Part shown: one piece after another, positions 32,179 to 37,077 of the stretch
Position numbering within the stretch: position 1 is the stretch's first letter
How the letters are laid out: each line of letters begins with the position of its first letter
Origin: Pseudomonadota bacterium
GTDB lineage: Bacteria > Pseudomonadota > Alphaproteobacteria > Acetobacterales > Acetobacteraceae
Direction of reading: 5' to 3'
Length of the DNA stretch: 37,077 nt
NCBI GenBank assembly: GCA_021781835.1
Contig: JAJXWD010000029.1
Coordinates: 1 to 37,077 of the forward strand
The notes under the pieces: model-generated
Seen by the model: the letters and a program-made list of their open reading frames with translations, nothing else
What the model was told of the DNA's origin: nothing
Databases searched by the model: none
Program-made: the position numbers and the translations under genes

Positions 32179-32850
32179 ATGGTAACCTTGCTTTTATTCA
32201 TTTCGTTTGGAGCCGGAATTTACTTTAGAGGCATTTTTACAAAAAAAGCATTGATGCTCGCCGAAAAGAAAGCAGCCGACCTTGGGGCATACAATGCTCA
32301 CCTCCTAAACGAGATCGCCGAAAAGAAGGCATCGGAAGAACGAAAATTAAACGATGCCGCTCGACGCAAGAAATATTTTGAAGAGAACGACTTAAAAGAC
32401 ACTGAAAACCAAATGAAATTCATCAATCAATGTGAATTGTATGCTGTCCGCCCGGTTAATACAGAAGCCGTTCAAGTCCTCTATGCTCTCGATGAATGGA
32501 TTCATATTTATGAGCCAACATGGCGTCTGTCATTCGAGGTCAGCATGGGAGCTTTCATCAAGACGTCAAATGAATATGAAGACCGACTGCGAGATGCCGC
32601 ATTTAGCTCATACAACAGCAAACGTGTGGATTTTCTCTTGATAGATCGTTTTGGCAAACCTCAGCTTGCGGTGGAATACCACGGAACAGGGCATGATCTT
32701 TCCGATGATGCGGCAGATCGAATGGCTGTTAAGCGCTTAGCCTTACAGAAAGCCGGCATCCCTTTAATCGAAATCTCCGCCAATACGCCTAAGACGGATA
32801 TCCTTCGCATGGCGTCAGAATTGCTCGGCTCCAGGGCGGCCTCCCTTTGA
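32179..32850 (+). CDS. membrane-anchored DUF2726 (nuclease-fold-like) protein
   Basis: A 223-residue protein with one N-terminal membrane helix (VTLLLFISFGAGIYF) and a charged coiled-coil region (about 25-80, rich in Ala/Lys/Glu). A DUF2726 domain covers about 85-215. The core VDFLLIDRFGKPQLAVEYHG, then KRLALQKAGIPLIEI, resembles the PD-(D/E)xK nuclease-like arrangement (D...ExH...K) seen in DUF2726 proteins. Whether it cuts nucleic acid is not known. Codons and base composition are clearly more A/T-rich than in secA next door, suggesting transfer. It lies between secA and tRNA-Arg, alone on its strand. Confidence 0.72.
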   Translation: MVTLLLFISFGAGIYFRGIFTKKALMLAEKKAADLGAYNAHLLNEIAEKKASEERKLNDAARRKKYFEENDLKDTENQMKFINQCELYAVRPVNTEAVQVLYALDEWIHIYEPTWRLSFEVSMGAFIKTSNEYEDRLRDAAFSSYNSKRVDFLLIDRFGKPQLAVEYHGTGHDLSDDAADRMAVKRLALQKAGIPLIEISANTPKTDILRMASELLGSRAASL

Positions 32851-32977: not shown

Positions 32978-33054
32978 GGACCCGTAGCTCAGCTGGATAG
33001 AGCGTTGCCCTCCGAAGGCAAAGGTCACGCGTTCGAATCGCGTCGGGTCCGCCA
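32978..33054 (+). tRNA. tRNA-Arg (anticodon CCG)
   Basis: A complete 77-base cloverleaf. The acceptor is GGACCCG paired with CGGGTCC; the D-arm is GCTCAGCTGGATAGAGC. The anticodon stem TTGCC/GGCAA has loop CTCCGAA, giving anticodon CCG, which reads CGG. The T-arm is ACGCG-TTCGAAT-CGCGT, followed by discriminator G and an encoded CCA. Its 3' end is directly followed by a stretch that looks like mobile-element DNA, so it may be the integration site. Confidence 0.97.
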
Positions 33055-33353
33055 ATAAATCAATGAGTTATGAAGCACTCCAGCGCCCGGCCAGAAGGCG
33101 GGTAAGCAGGAGGTAAGCAAGCGGGAGCAAATTCGGGGCATCTCGGGTAAAGTGGCACGTTCGCATCTGGCGATGGAGTATTGAGGCAAACGGGCGTACG
33201 GGGCTCGCCAAAGCCTCCCGTAAAGGCTTAGCTCGCTTGTCCCCTTGGCGGGACACAAGAAAAAAACCGCCCCCCTTGAGAAGCAATTATAGACAAGAGA
33301 AAGAGTTTGGTGCACGATTATCGAATCGGGCAGCTTTTTCTGCTCAGCAAATG
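33055..33353 (+). other. 299-bp stretch without a credible gene, between tRNA-Arg and the repeat array
   Basis: Open frames here (112 and 72 residues on the minus strand) run into the tRNA or lack family features and ribosome sites. No integrase N- or C-terminus could be recognised in either strand. There is an imperfect hairpin, CTTGT-CCC...GGG-ACACAAG (about 33236-33259), followed by an A-run. This is the part of the element next to the attachment tRNA where an integrase gene would normally be expected. Confidence 0.5.
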
Positions 33354-33528
33354 AGTGGTTCACCCCACTCTATCAGCGAGTGGTTCAGGCCACTCAGCAA
33401 GCAGGTGGCTCAGGCCACCATACCAGCAGGTGGCTCAGGCCACCATACCAGCAGGTGGCTCACGCCACCATATCAGCGGGTGGTTCAGGCCACTCAGCAA
33501 GCGAGTGGCTTACGCCACTATATCTCCA
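33354..33528. repeat. seven tandem 25-bp repeats, each with a 16-bp hairpin
   Basis: Hairpin units start at 33354, 33379, 33404, 33429, 33454, 33479 and 33504, exactly 25 bp apart. The core is RGTGGY-TCAG-GCCACY (6-bp stem with one possible G-T pair, 4-nt loop); the first unit is the most diverged. The 9-bp linkers alternate between two kinds: ATAYCAGCR and CAGCAAGCR. Arms vary in matching pairs (AGTGG with CCACT, GGTGG with CCACC), which argues for selection on the dyad. There are no unique spacers. Its position, 66 bp before a small HTH gene followed by a Rep-type ATPase, fits replication iterons or a multi-site operator. Confidence 0.9.
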
Positions 33529-33529
33529 G

Positions 33530-33544
33530 CCCGCGTACAGCGGG
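33530..33544. repeat. short hairpin just after the repeat array
   Basis: CCCGC-GTACA-GCGGG, a 5-bp dyad of different sequence from the array units, 10 bp after the last one and 50 bp before the HTH gene. It could be part of the same control or origin region, or the leader of the HTH transcript. Confidence 0.35.
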
Positions 33545-33594
33545 ACATCACATCATGAATTATCTCAAGAAACCTTAGTGATTTGGAGGCAGAT

Positions 33595-33840
33595 TTGACG
33601 TTCGATAGATTGTTGAAGAGAAAAGAAGCCGCGAAGTATTGCCAAGATCGCGGTTGTCCTGTCGAGCCTTCGACGCTTGCGAAACTAGCTTGCGTTGGCG
33701 GTGGCCCGACCATGAGGAAATTTGGACGGAGGGTCCTCTACGAGCCCAAAGCGCTCGTGGACTGGATAGATTCAAAACTATCCGCACCCCGTAGTTCGAC
33801 TTCGGACGCGAATGATTCTGGTCGCCGGGGAGGTCGCTAA
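33595..33840 (+). CDS. small helix-turn-helix protein (AlpA/excisionase-like)
   Basis: An 81-residue DNA-binding protein with an HTH_17/MerR-like winged helix: LLKRKEAAKYC (helix 1), VEPSTLAKLACVGGGPTMRKFG (recognition helix and turn), RRVLYEPKALVDWIDSKL (wing and helix 3). The tail is Ser/Arg/Gly-rich. The TTG at 33595 is preferred because TTGGAGG stands 5 nt before it; a TTG at 33583 would place that site inside the gene. Such proteins act as excisionases or as activators of island excision and replication genes. It is 5 bp upstream of the Rep-type ATPase and just after the seven-hairpin array, so those dyads are natural candidates for its binding sites. Confidence 0.72.
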   Translation: MTFDRLLKRKEAAKYCQDRGCPVEPSTLAKLACVGGGPTMRKFGRRVLYEPKALVDWIDSKLSAPRSSTSDANDSGRRGGR

Positions 33841-33845
33841 TCGCC

Positions 33846-35942
33846 ATGGCTTCCGATAATTATCTGATTTCGCCAAAATACTTCCTGGACGACGACCTAA
33901 ACCCGCCAGGGCTTGGTAGACTGCGATGGCGGCCGGCCTGGGCATACCAGCCGCCGCATTGTTCAGACGAGGTCGCTCTCTGGTCAGCGGTACATCTTCA
34001 CGCTCTGGCCAACACGACGCAGATCGTACAAAAAATATTGCCTGAAGGACGGCGCCAGGACAACTTATGGCGAGACGGTTCTATTATCGTTGCGCTCAGG
34101 CGCGGCTATGTCCGCGAAGTAAATTGTATTCTTGATCGAGGGGCTTGGGGGTGCCTCAGCTCAGATTGGTGGGGGGGAAACATAGTGGAACTTTACGCCT
34201 ATGTAAACCGACGCAACTACCGGGAGGCCATTTATGCGCTCGCGAACGAGGGGAAGCTCACGGGATTGAATAATGAGAGCTACCCTAAAAATCAGATTAA
34301 CCAATGGCACCAAGTTCGAGATCCGCTCCATCCGGATTTCGAGAGTCACCTCTTGCCGTGGTGCTATCCACACGACAGCGATATCCTAGTCTATTACAAT
34401 GTTGATGGTCATCCCATCCTTCAGGTCATTCGCCATCGTCTGCCGAATGGTAAGACAATTTGTACGTATAGGTCACCTTGGAGTTATCGCGGGGGGCCGA
34501 TTAGTCAGTGGGTGGAGATTCTTCCCCAGCGACCTTTCCCAATTTATAATGCAAATATGATCCAGTCCGGGGGCGCCTCGGAAGTGTTCCTGGTCGAGAA
34601 TGAATTCCTGGCAAATGAACGGAGTAAAAATGAACGTCTGGCTCATATGTGGAACTGGGAAGAACCGAAGCGTGTCTTCATTGCGGTTCCGTGTGGCTTA
34701 AAGAATCTGCCCGAGGCAGATCTTGCTCCCTTGCGGGGTCAGAAAATTTTCGTAATTTTGGGCCAGAATGACTTGGAAGAAGGCTCTTGCATTCAACACG
34801 CCCTACAGAATGCGGGAGCCATCGAAGTTCATTTTTCCATTGACGGAGGAGAAACTTTCACATCTTTCGCGAATCTTGAGAAAATTGCCGAGCAACGGAA
34901 CATTATTCTGCGTTCGCCGCCGCTTAAACGAATTGTCTCGACAAAAACTCAATTTGTCATTCCTGCCGGAGAAAGAATTCCTGGCGGAGACGATGTCCGC
35001 CTCGATCTGATTTCTCCCATCATTCGTACAGGCGACATTATTTGGCTATATGCCGCCCCAAAGACAGGCAAAACTTGGATAGCCTTATCAATGGCTTATG
35101 CAGTCGCGCGGGGTAACTGCAATATTGCCTCATGGCATACCAATGATCCCGCAGGTGTCCTCTACGTTGATGGTGAAATGAAACCGGACCAACTTCAAGA
35201 GTCTATCTCCATGATAATGAACGGCGCAGGAGAGCTAACCCAGTCGGCGCCCTTTGATATCATTTGTGCACAGGCCCTCGACGACGGATTTGTTGACATC
35301 ACGTTGGAGGAAACGCAGGAGGAGATCGAAAAAACTTTAAGGGAGAAGAAATTCAAACTTTTGGTTCTGGATAATATCCAAGCTCTTTCGTCGAACAAAC
35401 CCAGCGCAGTTAACCAACTTTTTCCTTGGTTGAGGAAGCTCGCGCGGGCCGGAATCGCAGTGATAGTCGTCGACCACACAAACGGTGATGGAGAAGTTCA
35501 GGGCTCCAGCACGAAGGAACGCGTCCCGGACCTGCTGATCTATATCAGCTACCCAGATGCAAGCGCAAAGAGAGATGGGCGTATACTGGTCGAATTTCCC
35601 TATGCCCGACGGCTACACGGTACAAATGCCGAGCCTTTCCAGCTACACATGGTCTTTACCAAAAATACTTTCAGAGTCGAAGTTGTGTTGCCTGAGAGGA
35701 ACGATTGCGACGGTTTGCAGCCCAAGGCAATCGAGAGAGTGGTAAGAATCGCACAAGTGGTGTTCGCGAGAGATCATGAGAATTTGTCATTTCCAAAACT
35801 GCACAAAAAATATGGCATCTCGAAATCAACCGCGTACGGCGACTATCAGAATGCGAGTACACTCATTGGCGATAAGAAGACGGCCTTTGATAAAGAACTA
35901 CAGAGGCTGATAGGCGGGCAGTCACCATCTGAGTCGAATTAG
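33846..35942 (+). CDS. RepA-type P-loop ATPase with degenerate primase-like N-terminus
   Basis: A 698-residue replication-type protein. The C-terminal half is a RecA-fold helicase of the RSF1010 RepA/AAA_25 kind: Walker A AAPKTGKT (403-410), VLYVDGEM (438-445), Walker B LLVLDN (505-510), and DHTNGDGEVQGSSTKERVPDLLIYI (543-567), the sensor/His-loop block of this family. Residues about 246-325 (EVFLVENEF ... KIFVILGQND) look like a TOPRIM fold with lost acidic residues. A last helix-turn-helix, FPKLHKKYGISKSTAYGDY, lies near 653. GC content is lower than in host genes. It is directly downstream of the HTH gene in one transcription unit. Likely role: unwinding an element's own origin. Confidence 0.75.
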   Translation: MASDNYLISPKYFLDDDLNPPGLGRLRWRPAWAYQPPHCSDEVALWSAVHLHALANTTQIVQKILPEGRRQDNLWRDGSIIVALRRGYVREVNCILDRGAWGCLSSDWWGGNIVELYAYVNRRNYREAIYALANEGKLTGLNNESYPKNQINQWHQVRDPLHPDFESHLLPWCYPHDSDILVYYNVDGHPILQVIRHRLPNGKTICTYRSPWSYRGGPISQWVEILPQRPFPIYNANMIQSGGASEVFLVENEFLANERSKNERLAHMWNWEEPKRVFIAVPCGLKNLPEADLAPLRGQKIFVILGQNDLEEGSCIQHALQNAGAIEVHFSIDGGETFTSFANLEKIAEQRNIILRSPPLKRIVSTKTQFVIPAGERIPGGDDVRLDLISPIIRTGDIIWLYAAPKTGKTWIALSMAYAVARGNCNIASWHTNDPAGVLYVDGEMKPDQLQESISMIMNGAGELTQSAPFDIICAQALDDGFVDITLEETQEEIEKTLREKKFKLLVLDNIQALSSNKPSAVNQLFPWLRKLARAGIAVIVVDHTNGDGEVQGSSTKERVPDLLIYISYPDASAKRDGRILVEFPYARRLHGTNAEPFQLHMVFTKNTFRVEVVLPERNDCDGLQPKAIERVVRIAQVVFARDHENLSFPKLHKKYGISKSTAYGDYQNASTLIGDKKTAFDKELQRLIGGQSPSESN

Positions 35943-35972
35943 ACTTGGTCGTGTCCCCGTCCGTGATGTAGG

Positions 35973-35989
35973 AGGCCGGTAATCGGCCT
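35973..35989. repeat. hairpin 30 bp after the Rep gene
   Basis: AGGCCG-GTAAT-CGGCCT, a perfect 6-bp stem with a 5-nt loop. No T-tract follows. It may belong to the insertion sequence end, where hairpins can guard against read-through transcription, or may be a weak terminator of the Rep gene. Confidence 0.35.
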
Positions 35990-36101
35990 GCCGTAGCGAC
36001 CGCCGCGCGTCTGGCGGAGGCGGGCCGATTGGCGGCCATCGGGGCGGTTTTTGGGTAGCATTGGGTTGCTCCACGCAACGCAAACCCAAGGAACCATCCC
36101 G

Positions 36102-37077
36102 ATGACCGACGACAAGATCGCGCTTTCCACGCTTTTGGAGAAGTCCTCCGACGCCAGTTTTCTGCGCGAGATGATCGGCTTTGCCGCCGAGCGGCTGATG
36201 GCGCTGGAGACCGAGACGCTGTGCAACGCCGCCCCCGGCGCGCGCTCGGCTGAGCGTCTGAACCAACGCAACGGCTACCGTGACCGCGACTGGGAGACGC
36301 GGGCCGGTACGGTCGAGCTGCGCATCCCCAAACTGCGCCGCGGCAGCTACTTCCCGGCCTTCCTGGAACCGCGCCGGATGGCGGAGAAGGCGCTGACCGC
36401 GGTCATCCAGGAAGCCTATATCCAAGGCATATCAACGCGTTCCGTTGATGATCTGGTCAAGGCGATGGGCTGCGAGGGCGTCTCCAAAAGCCAGGTTTCG
36501 CGCCTGTGCGGGGAGATCGACGAGCGCGTGAACGCCTTCCTCACCCGCCCGATCGAGGGCGACTGGCCGTATGTTTGGCTGGATGCCACCTACATCAAGG
36601 TCCGGCGCGACCACCGCATTGTCTCCACCGCTGTCATCATCGCCGTGGGCGTGAACACCGACGGCAGGCGCGAGGTGCTCGGCATGACCACCGGCCATAG
36701 CGAGGCCGAGCCATTCTGGGTGGAGTTCCTGCGCAGCCTGGCCAGGCGCGGCCTGCGCGGCGTCAAGCTGGTCTGGTCATCTCCGACGCTCATGAGGGGC
36801 TGAAGGCCGCCATCTCCAAAGTGCTCAGCGCCACATGGCAGCGCTGCCGCGTGCATTTCATGCGCAACGCCCTGGCCTATGCCGGCAAAACCCAGAAGCG
36901 CGTCGTCTCCGCCTGGGTCGGCACCGCCTTCGCTCAAGACGATGCCGCGGCCGCCCACAAGCAATGGCGCAACGTCGCCGACCAGATGCGCCCGCGCGTA
37001 CCCAAGCTTGCCGCCCTGCTCGACAACGCTGAAAACGATGTCCTCGCCTACATGGGCTTCCCCGCCGCACACAGGGC
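36102..37077 (+). pseudogene. IS256-family transposase, frameshifted and cut by the window end
   Basis: The reading frame starts [15 protein letters not shown]. It carries the Mutator-type N-terminal block ([27 protein letters not shown]) and the first catalytic Asp in [12 protein letters not shown]. At 36768-36777 the pentamer CTGGT is doubled, which shifts the frame and stops it at 36801-36803. Removing one CTGGT restores [14 protein letters not shown] with the second catalytic Asp. The other frame then continues open (RVHFMRNALAYAGKTQKR) to the window edge. The original protein would be about 400 residues. As it stands it is inactive unless frameshifting or a sequencing error explains the duplication. 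Confidence 0.85.

Follow-up and report, generated by a model that had tools for sequence, protein, structure and literature searches.

The window, i.e. the whole stretch of 37,077 nucleotides that was analysed, is one whole contig (C19). The features considered here lie towards its right end:

32978..33054, + strand: tRNA-Arg (CCG), the integration target at the element edge (ARAGORN; Rfam tRNA, 68 bits)
33007..33059, + strand: attL core of 53 bp, with an identical second copy on contig C64 (about 1777-1829)
33101..33119, + strand: two copies of GGTAAGCA, an 8-mer that also occurs on C64 between the integrase and attR (L019 1335, 1346 and 1454)
33354..33528, + strand: palindromic repeat array, 7 x (16-bp dyad RGTGGY-TYAS-SCCACY + 9-bp linker), the innermost pair being broken in the first unit
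33545..33644, no strand: locally AT-rich stretch (39% GC), a candidate unwinding stretch and/or promoter region
33595..33840, + strand: 81-aa winged-HTH protein, RdfS-like, with a TTG start and GGAGG 5 nt before it
33846..35942, + strand: 698-aa Rep, toprim-like at about residues 178-310, AAA_25 ATPase at 385-548, HTH-like tail by eye
35947..37077, + strand: IS256-family insertion sequence, cut by the contig end; its left edge was inferred from the start of matches to other copies

The 53-bp copy of the tRNA end, a tyrosine recombinase and the common GGTAAGCA repeats on C64 together indicate that an integrative element has its left end in the window. The recombinase (433 aa, PF00589 catalytic and PF13356 arm-binding parts) lies just inside the C64 att copy, at which no complete tRNA gene was found. 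The GGTAAGCA repeats are present on the element side of both att cores and are probably integrase arm-type sites. The element is read as running from 33007 onwards, with attL at the tRNA, and attR and the integrase at its other end on C64. Direct att repeats thus flank it and an integrase sits inside one end, with the two ends on separate contigs. The integrative element postulated in the earlier note is hence supported and can be located. In the circular form, integrase, attP, array, HTH gene and rep would be neighbours. The middle of the element lies beyond this contig and may hold a relaxase, cargo, regulators or a second initiator.

The host part has a GC content of 65%, and the part from 33060 to the contig end one of 55%. 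A DUF2726 ORF (32179-32850) is located between secA and the tRNA gene, to the host side of attL. For the IS256 stretch, the best-covering match among those listed was an Acidisoma plasmid (98% covered, 79% identical), and two further matches at 95-99% identity were counted in the same search. Near 36800 the frame of the IS256-type transposase (36051-37077) appears to shift, which may reflect decay of this copy or an uncertain contig end.

The tRNA-Arg(CCG) gene is an integration hot spot in the genus, where several different islands with tyrosine recombinases are found. Its 29-bp 3' end (≤3 mismatches) was present in 27 of 38 genomes of the genus, own included, and integrase genes lay beside such copies in G006, G009, G017, G018 and G023. 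No palindromic array was seen in the stretches read of these five islands, one stretch (L225) carrying a short period-20 repeat. A BLASTN search of 33060-33600 against plasmids and phages gave no match.

Seven 16-bp dyads at an exact 25-bp period had been described at 33354-33528, and this description was confirmed. The seven units (u1-u7) start at 33354, 33379, 33404, 33429, 33454, 33479 and 33504 with no indels, and the dyad opens every unit. GTGG (positions 2-5), CCAC (12-15), T7, A9 and C24 were invariant in all seven. The centres of the GTGG and CCAC half-sites are 10 bp apart, i.e. one helical turn, which would be the layout expected for a symmetric-dimer site. The pattern RGTGGYTNNNNCCACY had seven exact matches in the 37-kb window, all of them inside the array (mean of 0.015 and maximum of 1 in 200 dinucleotide block shuffles). 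With up to two mismatches, 35 matches were found against 14.7 +/- 3.8 expected, and 14 of these 35 were the array itself on both strands. Upstream of the HTH gene, self-matching at 25 bp scored z = 73 against shuffles, and the pair pattern of the array was found in the 2.9-Mb assembly at the array only.

Two linker types exist, as had been claimed, but they do not alternate: their order is A B A A A B A, and the letters before u1 can be read as a remnant of a B-type linker. Units u3 and u4 are identical (25/25), and u2 and u6 nearly so (23/25). The array has therefore partly grown by duplication, and its units are not independent. A small inverted repeat (CCCGC-GTACA-GCGGG, 33530-33544) follows directly after the array.

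The claim that changes in the arms keep their pairing held in part. Across the six distinct units, pairing was kept in 97% of cells with G-U allowed, compared with 36-61% when the arms were slid against each other. Only one of the six dyad pairs, the outermost, changes on both sides (A-T to G-C, with one G-T), and four are constant. In u1 the innermost pair is broken, and in u2 and u6 it is T-G. The proposed check of arm covariation gave no signal beyond chance, as the observed score was reached in 93 of 500 shuffles in which the 3' letters were dealt out.

These data also bear on an RNA function, in which the leader of the operon transcript would form hairpins as an attenuator, an antisense target or a protein-binding leader. 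The + strand, on which the mismatches of u2 and u6 become G-U pairs, folded with z -6.8. A palindromic array folds anyway, however: the minus strand reached z -5.2 and the DNA z -6.4. In the best + strand RNA fold only u5 formed its own hairpin, and no Rfam family other than the tRNA was above threshold. Arm covariation as proof of RNA structure was rejected, since both strands and the DNA fold and the shuffles match the score. The RNA or hairpin function that the earlier note had kept in play thus found no specific support, and we regard an RNA function as the least probable of the readings considered.

A distance of 75 bp separates the last dyad from the HTH start, and 294 bp separate the array from the att core. 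The AT-rich stretch at 33545-33644 has the lowest GC content of any 100 bp in the interval 33060-34000 and belongs to the lowest 0.8% of the contig's 100-bp windows. As the most AT-rich 100 bp of the element it was ruled out by a spot of 37% GC inside rep, near 35323. This lower-GC spot lowers the weight of an origin at the array and raises that of an operator, and the AT-rich stretch could equally be promoter DNA. One DnaA box with one mismatch was found at 33287; the window total of 22 against 19.9 expected is at chance level. No sigma-70-like promoter was found in 33000-34000. Between attL and the array, a terminator-like hairpin with a T run lies on the minus strand (33265-33288), and the regional count of such structures was at chance level.

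The 81-aa protein has an alternative TTG start at 33583, which would give 85 aa. Its HTH_17 (PF12728) match of 16.2 bits remained below the gathering cut-off of 27, and at E 0.01 HTH_17 was matched by 4 of 18 aligned relatives, the window protein not among them. The best solved relative was RdfS, which acts in ICEMlSymR7A as recombination directionality factor (phmmer E 6.6e-5, with chance-looking antibody chains next at 3.5e-4). In a search with a profile of the 18 relatives, RdfS was the sole match up to E 0.1 (E 3.5e-8). A structure predicted from the sequence alone (mean pLDDT 64) showed the order alpha-alpha-beta-beta-alpha, and Foldseek placed RdfS at rank 1 with E 0.011, with no match at or below 0.001. 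An extra N-terminal oligomerisation helix as in RdfS was looked for; this low-confidence model had no helix before residue 13. The protein is accordingly a winged-HTH homologue of RdfS by sequence and, weakly, by fold, and it is probably the excision factor of the element.

Relatives of the HTH protein at E <=1e-6 were found in 48 of 397 family genomes, own included (50 places). The same query matched one phage record and 112 plasmid records, all below 60% identity, and none of the viral contigs.

RdfS is described as binding attP and its own promoter with no consensus motif and as oligomerising along the DNA (PMC11963761). Given this mode of binding, the 81-aa protein, being RdfS-like, is disfavoured as the symmetric reader of the dyads. 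Binding by the small HTH protein, one of the two options first offered, has therefore become less likely. A related reading is an accessory recombination region, in which the RdfS-like protein would coat the array and shape the excision complex near attL. The short distance of the array to the att core, the nearby putative integrase arm repeats and the homology to RdfS in sequence and fold would suit this. Against it, sites of such directionality factors are reported as direct repeats one turn apart (PMC7498355) and as lacking a consensus (PMC11963761), palindromic units are ill-suited to head-to-tail assembly, and the tested HTH relatives had no such arrays. This makes it an improbable reading, ranked just above an RNA function.

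The rep gene begins 5 bp after the stop of the HTH gene. Residues 385-548 of Rep matched AAA_25 (RepA/DnaB-like) with E 2e-22, and DnaB-like helicase and primase/helicase PHROGs covered this part too; residues 1-368, searched separately, had no PHROG match. A PADLOC model (mads_8, E 2e-8) covers the ATPase only, and we take it as a shared ATPase fold. The C-terminal tail aligned with the tails of seven RepA-like proteins and is HTH-like by eye. A structure model of Rep was discarded (mean pLDDT 33).

Parts of Rep matched ORFs that follow relatives of the HTH gene, so the order of an HTH gene and then a primase-like gene is shared. Residues 46-133 were 34% identical to a 160-aa ORF, itself lacking a Pfam match, directly after the relative in G153 (L187); such stretches are presumably CHC2-like. 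Residues 178-310 matched, at 27-29%, ORFs shortly after the relatives in G081 and G072 (L185, L186), which had DUF6371 above the cut-off, toprim models just below it, and no AAA_25. In the toprim-like part, EGEKAA/PDND, which we take to be the catalytic positions of toprim, reads ENEFLA/GQND. The motif looks degenerate, and if these positions are the catalytic ones, catalysis and hence priming by Rep would be doubtful.

The whole Rep was not found in any relative examined, and it had no match among named initiator families. A Pfam search at E 0.1 gave neither RepA_C (the SGI1 family) nor RepA_N. No PF10134 (RPA) match was obtained for Rep, and no RPA gene was present at the array. A lambda O-like Pfam match was absent for both the HTH and the Rep protein. 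With Rep as a query, no relative was found in plasmids and phages (tblastn) or in IMG/VR viral and GTDB genome contigs, where only close relatives are findable. Matches in family genomes (29-35%; 7 of 397 at E 1e-20) and in class genomes (13 of 385 at E 1e-12), own included in both counts, covered the ATPase region only. None of the collections searched yielded a close homologue of Rep, which leaves little against which to judge conservation of the array. The own genome carries a second AlpA-like HTH gene and a prim-pol-like ORF (both by eye) with an AAA_25-type ATPase on contig C55 (L017 7740-10050), with no such array.

A search for the repeats at homologous HTH-Rep loci had been proposed. 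No phased multi-copy array with a period of 15-40 was found in the ~640 bp (293 bp for one locus) before the HTH-relative match at any of 29 loci; with no close Rep homologue found, this is a weak test. The scan was measured from the match edge and not from the gene start, and it sees only repeats alike in sequence. Its loci are a subset of the 50 HTH places; 20 places were outside the scan, and one of these (G006 C87) was read separately. The window scored z 73; the one other outlier was L033, with two copies of 38 bp (z 22.6), followed by L046 (z 3.0). Likewise, none of 59 further loci, linked by the HTH gene, the Rep ATPase or the integration site, had such an array: six tandem arrays with at least 2.6 copies were present there, with no dyad arm longer than 4 bp. 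Four imperfect dyads spaced by about 22 bp (L045/L199) were rejected as an upstream array, because the HTH gene is on the minus strand and the dyads lie inside a downstream 293-aa ORF. These dyads (L045 916-996, G379 C62) are of the GGCAYC-GRTGCC type, one of the four units is weak, and their layout is like that of the lambda O gene.

A relaxed triplet pattern of the array occurred in one of 385 class genomes, the own one, and was absent from the other 384. The strict pair pattern occurred in one of 147 genomes (own) and in 0 viral contigs. In genome contigs and viral sequences, the relaxed pattern was found in at least 119 and in 7 stretches, respectively. Gene context was considered for 10 of the 119 genome-contig stretches: eight lay beside a replication-initiator-like gene and two (L096, L157) inside ORFs. 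The other 109 genome-contig and 7 viral stretches were judged from their repeat strings, and many look like coding repeats. PF10134 was found in all six stretches tested (L071, L074, L091, L092, L100, L117); judged by eye, L142 and L166 contain the same 316-aa ORF. From these searches, the array is confined to this element or to relatives outside the genomes sampled. No published description of it was met in the literature searched by titles and abstract beginnings, which is not proof that there is none.

A neutral tandem repeat, grown by slippage and unequal crossing over and serving no function, would agree with the duplication visible in the units and with the lack of the array in every examined relative. 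Slippage alone does not explain why the linkers and the centre vary but GTGG and CCAC stay unchanged in each of the seven units, and the placement between att and replication-type genes also argues against it. We consider a neutral repeat unlikely, although it ranks above a recombination region.

The array is thus real, so far lone, and situated in a well-defined integrative element, and an iteron origin or an operator beside an initiator operon, both of a known kind, is most likely. The earlier note had left the choice between origin and master operator, and these are still the two best readings. Our leading one, at a probability of roughly 45%, is an iteron-type replication origin (oriV) of the integrative element in tRNA-Arg(CCG). 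Iteron origins were taken to have three or more phased direct repeats; here there are seven, at exactly 25 bp.

The observed array, element ends, gene order, domain homologies and AT-rich neighbour would suit the following course. After excision, a single operon would supply the RdfS-like protein and Rep. The seven dyads would be bound, with one dimer per dyad, by Rep or by a dimeric partner of Rep. Binding would bend the DNA and melt the adjoining AT-rich stretch, where the Rep ATPase could load as a helicase, and the circular element would be copied. The same binding might also restrain the HTH-Rep operon, which starts 75 bp past the last dyad. Iterons often autoregulate their initiator gene, so that origin and operator can coexist.

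Several lines support the origin. The array lies beside a gene that combines a DnaB/RepA-like ATPase, a region matching toprim/DUF6371 ORFs of relatives and a tail that aligns with those of RepA-like proteins; the lowest-GC 100 bp of 33060-34000 abuts it; and the element ends, the integrase and the putative arm repeats are identified. Precedents exist in the layout (SGI1, PICMI), in the unit (lambda, RepA_N/PLE) and in the GTGG-N6-CCAC arrays of the RPA family. Many iterons run near two helical turns; the 25-bp period here amounts to 2.4 turns and is off-phase, which counts against an origin. So do the lack of an array at the 29 HTH relatives and 59 further loci, a Rep with no close homologue, the lowest-GC spot of the element lying inside rep and not at the array, the chance-level DnaA boxes, and the fact that the array is also placed where an operator would stand. 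The objection that palindromic units are unusual for iterons did not stand, as palindromic iterons are described for lambda (PMC7466680) and RepA_N/PLE (PMC7145576).

As an operator array and not an origin, the dyads would be bound by a dimeric regulator, supplied by the element itself, by its host or by a helper element, which would switch the HTH-Rep operon and so couple excision and replication. The position of the last dyad close before the HTH start fits this, half-site centres one turn apart would suit a dimeric HTH regulator, and the AT-rich stretch may simply be promoter DNA. Most operators need fewer than seven strictly phased copies, a need that the array exceeds. The lack of a sigma-70-like promoter in 33000-34000 also weakens an operator, as does the lack of a regulator gene visible on the contig, though most of the element lies off it. 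Precedents for such control are available. FseA activates the rdfS promoter of ICEMlSymR7A from an immediately upstream site, RdfS represses this promoter, and a figure legend also marks an inverted repeat there (PMC11963761). AcaCD drives the HTH_17-rep operon of SGI1 (PMC7433901). Overall, we hold the operator to be a tentative second choice, less probable than the origin.

A bolder proposal is a single switch, in which the C-terminal part of the orphan primase-helicase-like Rep would read the array, which might also open as cruciforms, while the operon-mate RdfS-like protein drives excision, the one array thus coupling excision to the start of replication. This would be an undescribed, probably alphaproteobacterial class of elements; we think it rather unlikely.

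If the array is an origin, the array, the HTH gene and rep would form a compact replicon of about 2.6 kb, built around a replication protein of the mobile element for which no close homologue turned up in the collections searched. The gene pair would then encode both a directionality factor and a replication initiator under one shared control array, and this would be added evidence for integrative elements that replicate after excision.

Among the closest known systems is SGI1, an integrative element in which the HTH_17 gene S004 is followed by rep and an iteron array with AT-rich flanks is present, its oriV being proved by deletion (PMC7433901). It differs in having four 17-bp iterons, not described there as palindromic, downstream of rep, with a putative DnaA box (PMC7433901), and in a Rep of another family. 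In PICMI, alpA and prim belong to one early regulon and prim is involved in replication (PMC10803314). The lambda origin likewise has several inverted-repeat iterons beside an AT-rich region and a dimeric initiator, but its iterons lie inside gene O (PMC7466680), and no O-like Pfam match was found here. PLE is an integrative satellite with its own RepA_N initiator and semi-palindromic direct repeats (PMC7145576), whereas the Rep of the window has no RepA_N match and its array no poly-A centre.

The RdfS of ICEMlSymR7A (8dgl) is a homologue of the 81-aa protein by sequence and, weakly, by fold. To our knowledge, no rep gene directly follows rdfS in ICEMlSymR7A. The description of the rdfS promoter mentions no such array (PMC11963761).

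Replicons of the RPA family (PF10134) also have tandem GTGG-N6-CCAC units beside a replication initiator. Such arrays were found on Komagataeibacter, Acetobacter, Sphingomonas and Aquamicrobium contigs (L071, L091, L117, L100, L142, L166, L074, L092). They differ in their period of 22-23 bp, in having 3-4 adjacent units plus outliers, and in being mostly GTGGTTTCACCCAC; we take these GTGGTTTCACCCAC-type arrays as analogues and not homologues of the array in the window. On the Komagataeibacter/Acetobacter contigs, near-identical GTGGTTTCACCCACC iterons lie next to RPA initiators, four together and a fifth farther off, and each of the five uncut stretches has an ORF of 67-70 aa that passes through the iterons:

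L071 7917-7998: GTGGTTTCACCCACC iterons
L091 1836-1917: GTGGTTTCACCCACC iterons
L117 4290-4371: GTGGTTTCACCCACC iterons
L100 1463-1544: GTGGTTTCACCCACC iterons
L142 869-950: GTGGTTTCACCCACC iterons
L166 3020-3101: GTGGTTTCACCCACC iterons

Finally, the alpha protein of phage P4 joins primase-like, helicase and DNA-binding parts in one protein of an integrative satellite. Its helicase is of another family, with no AAA_25.
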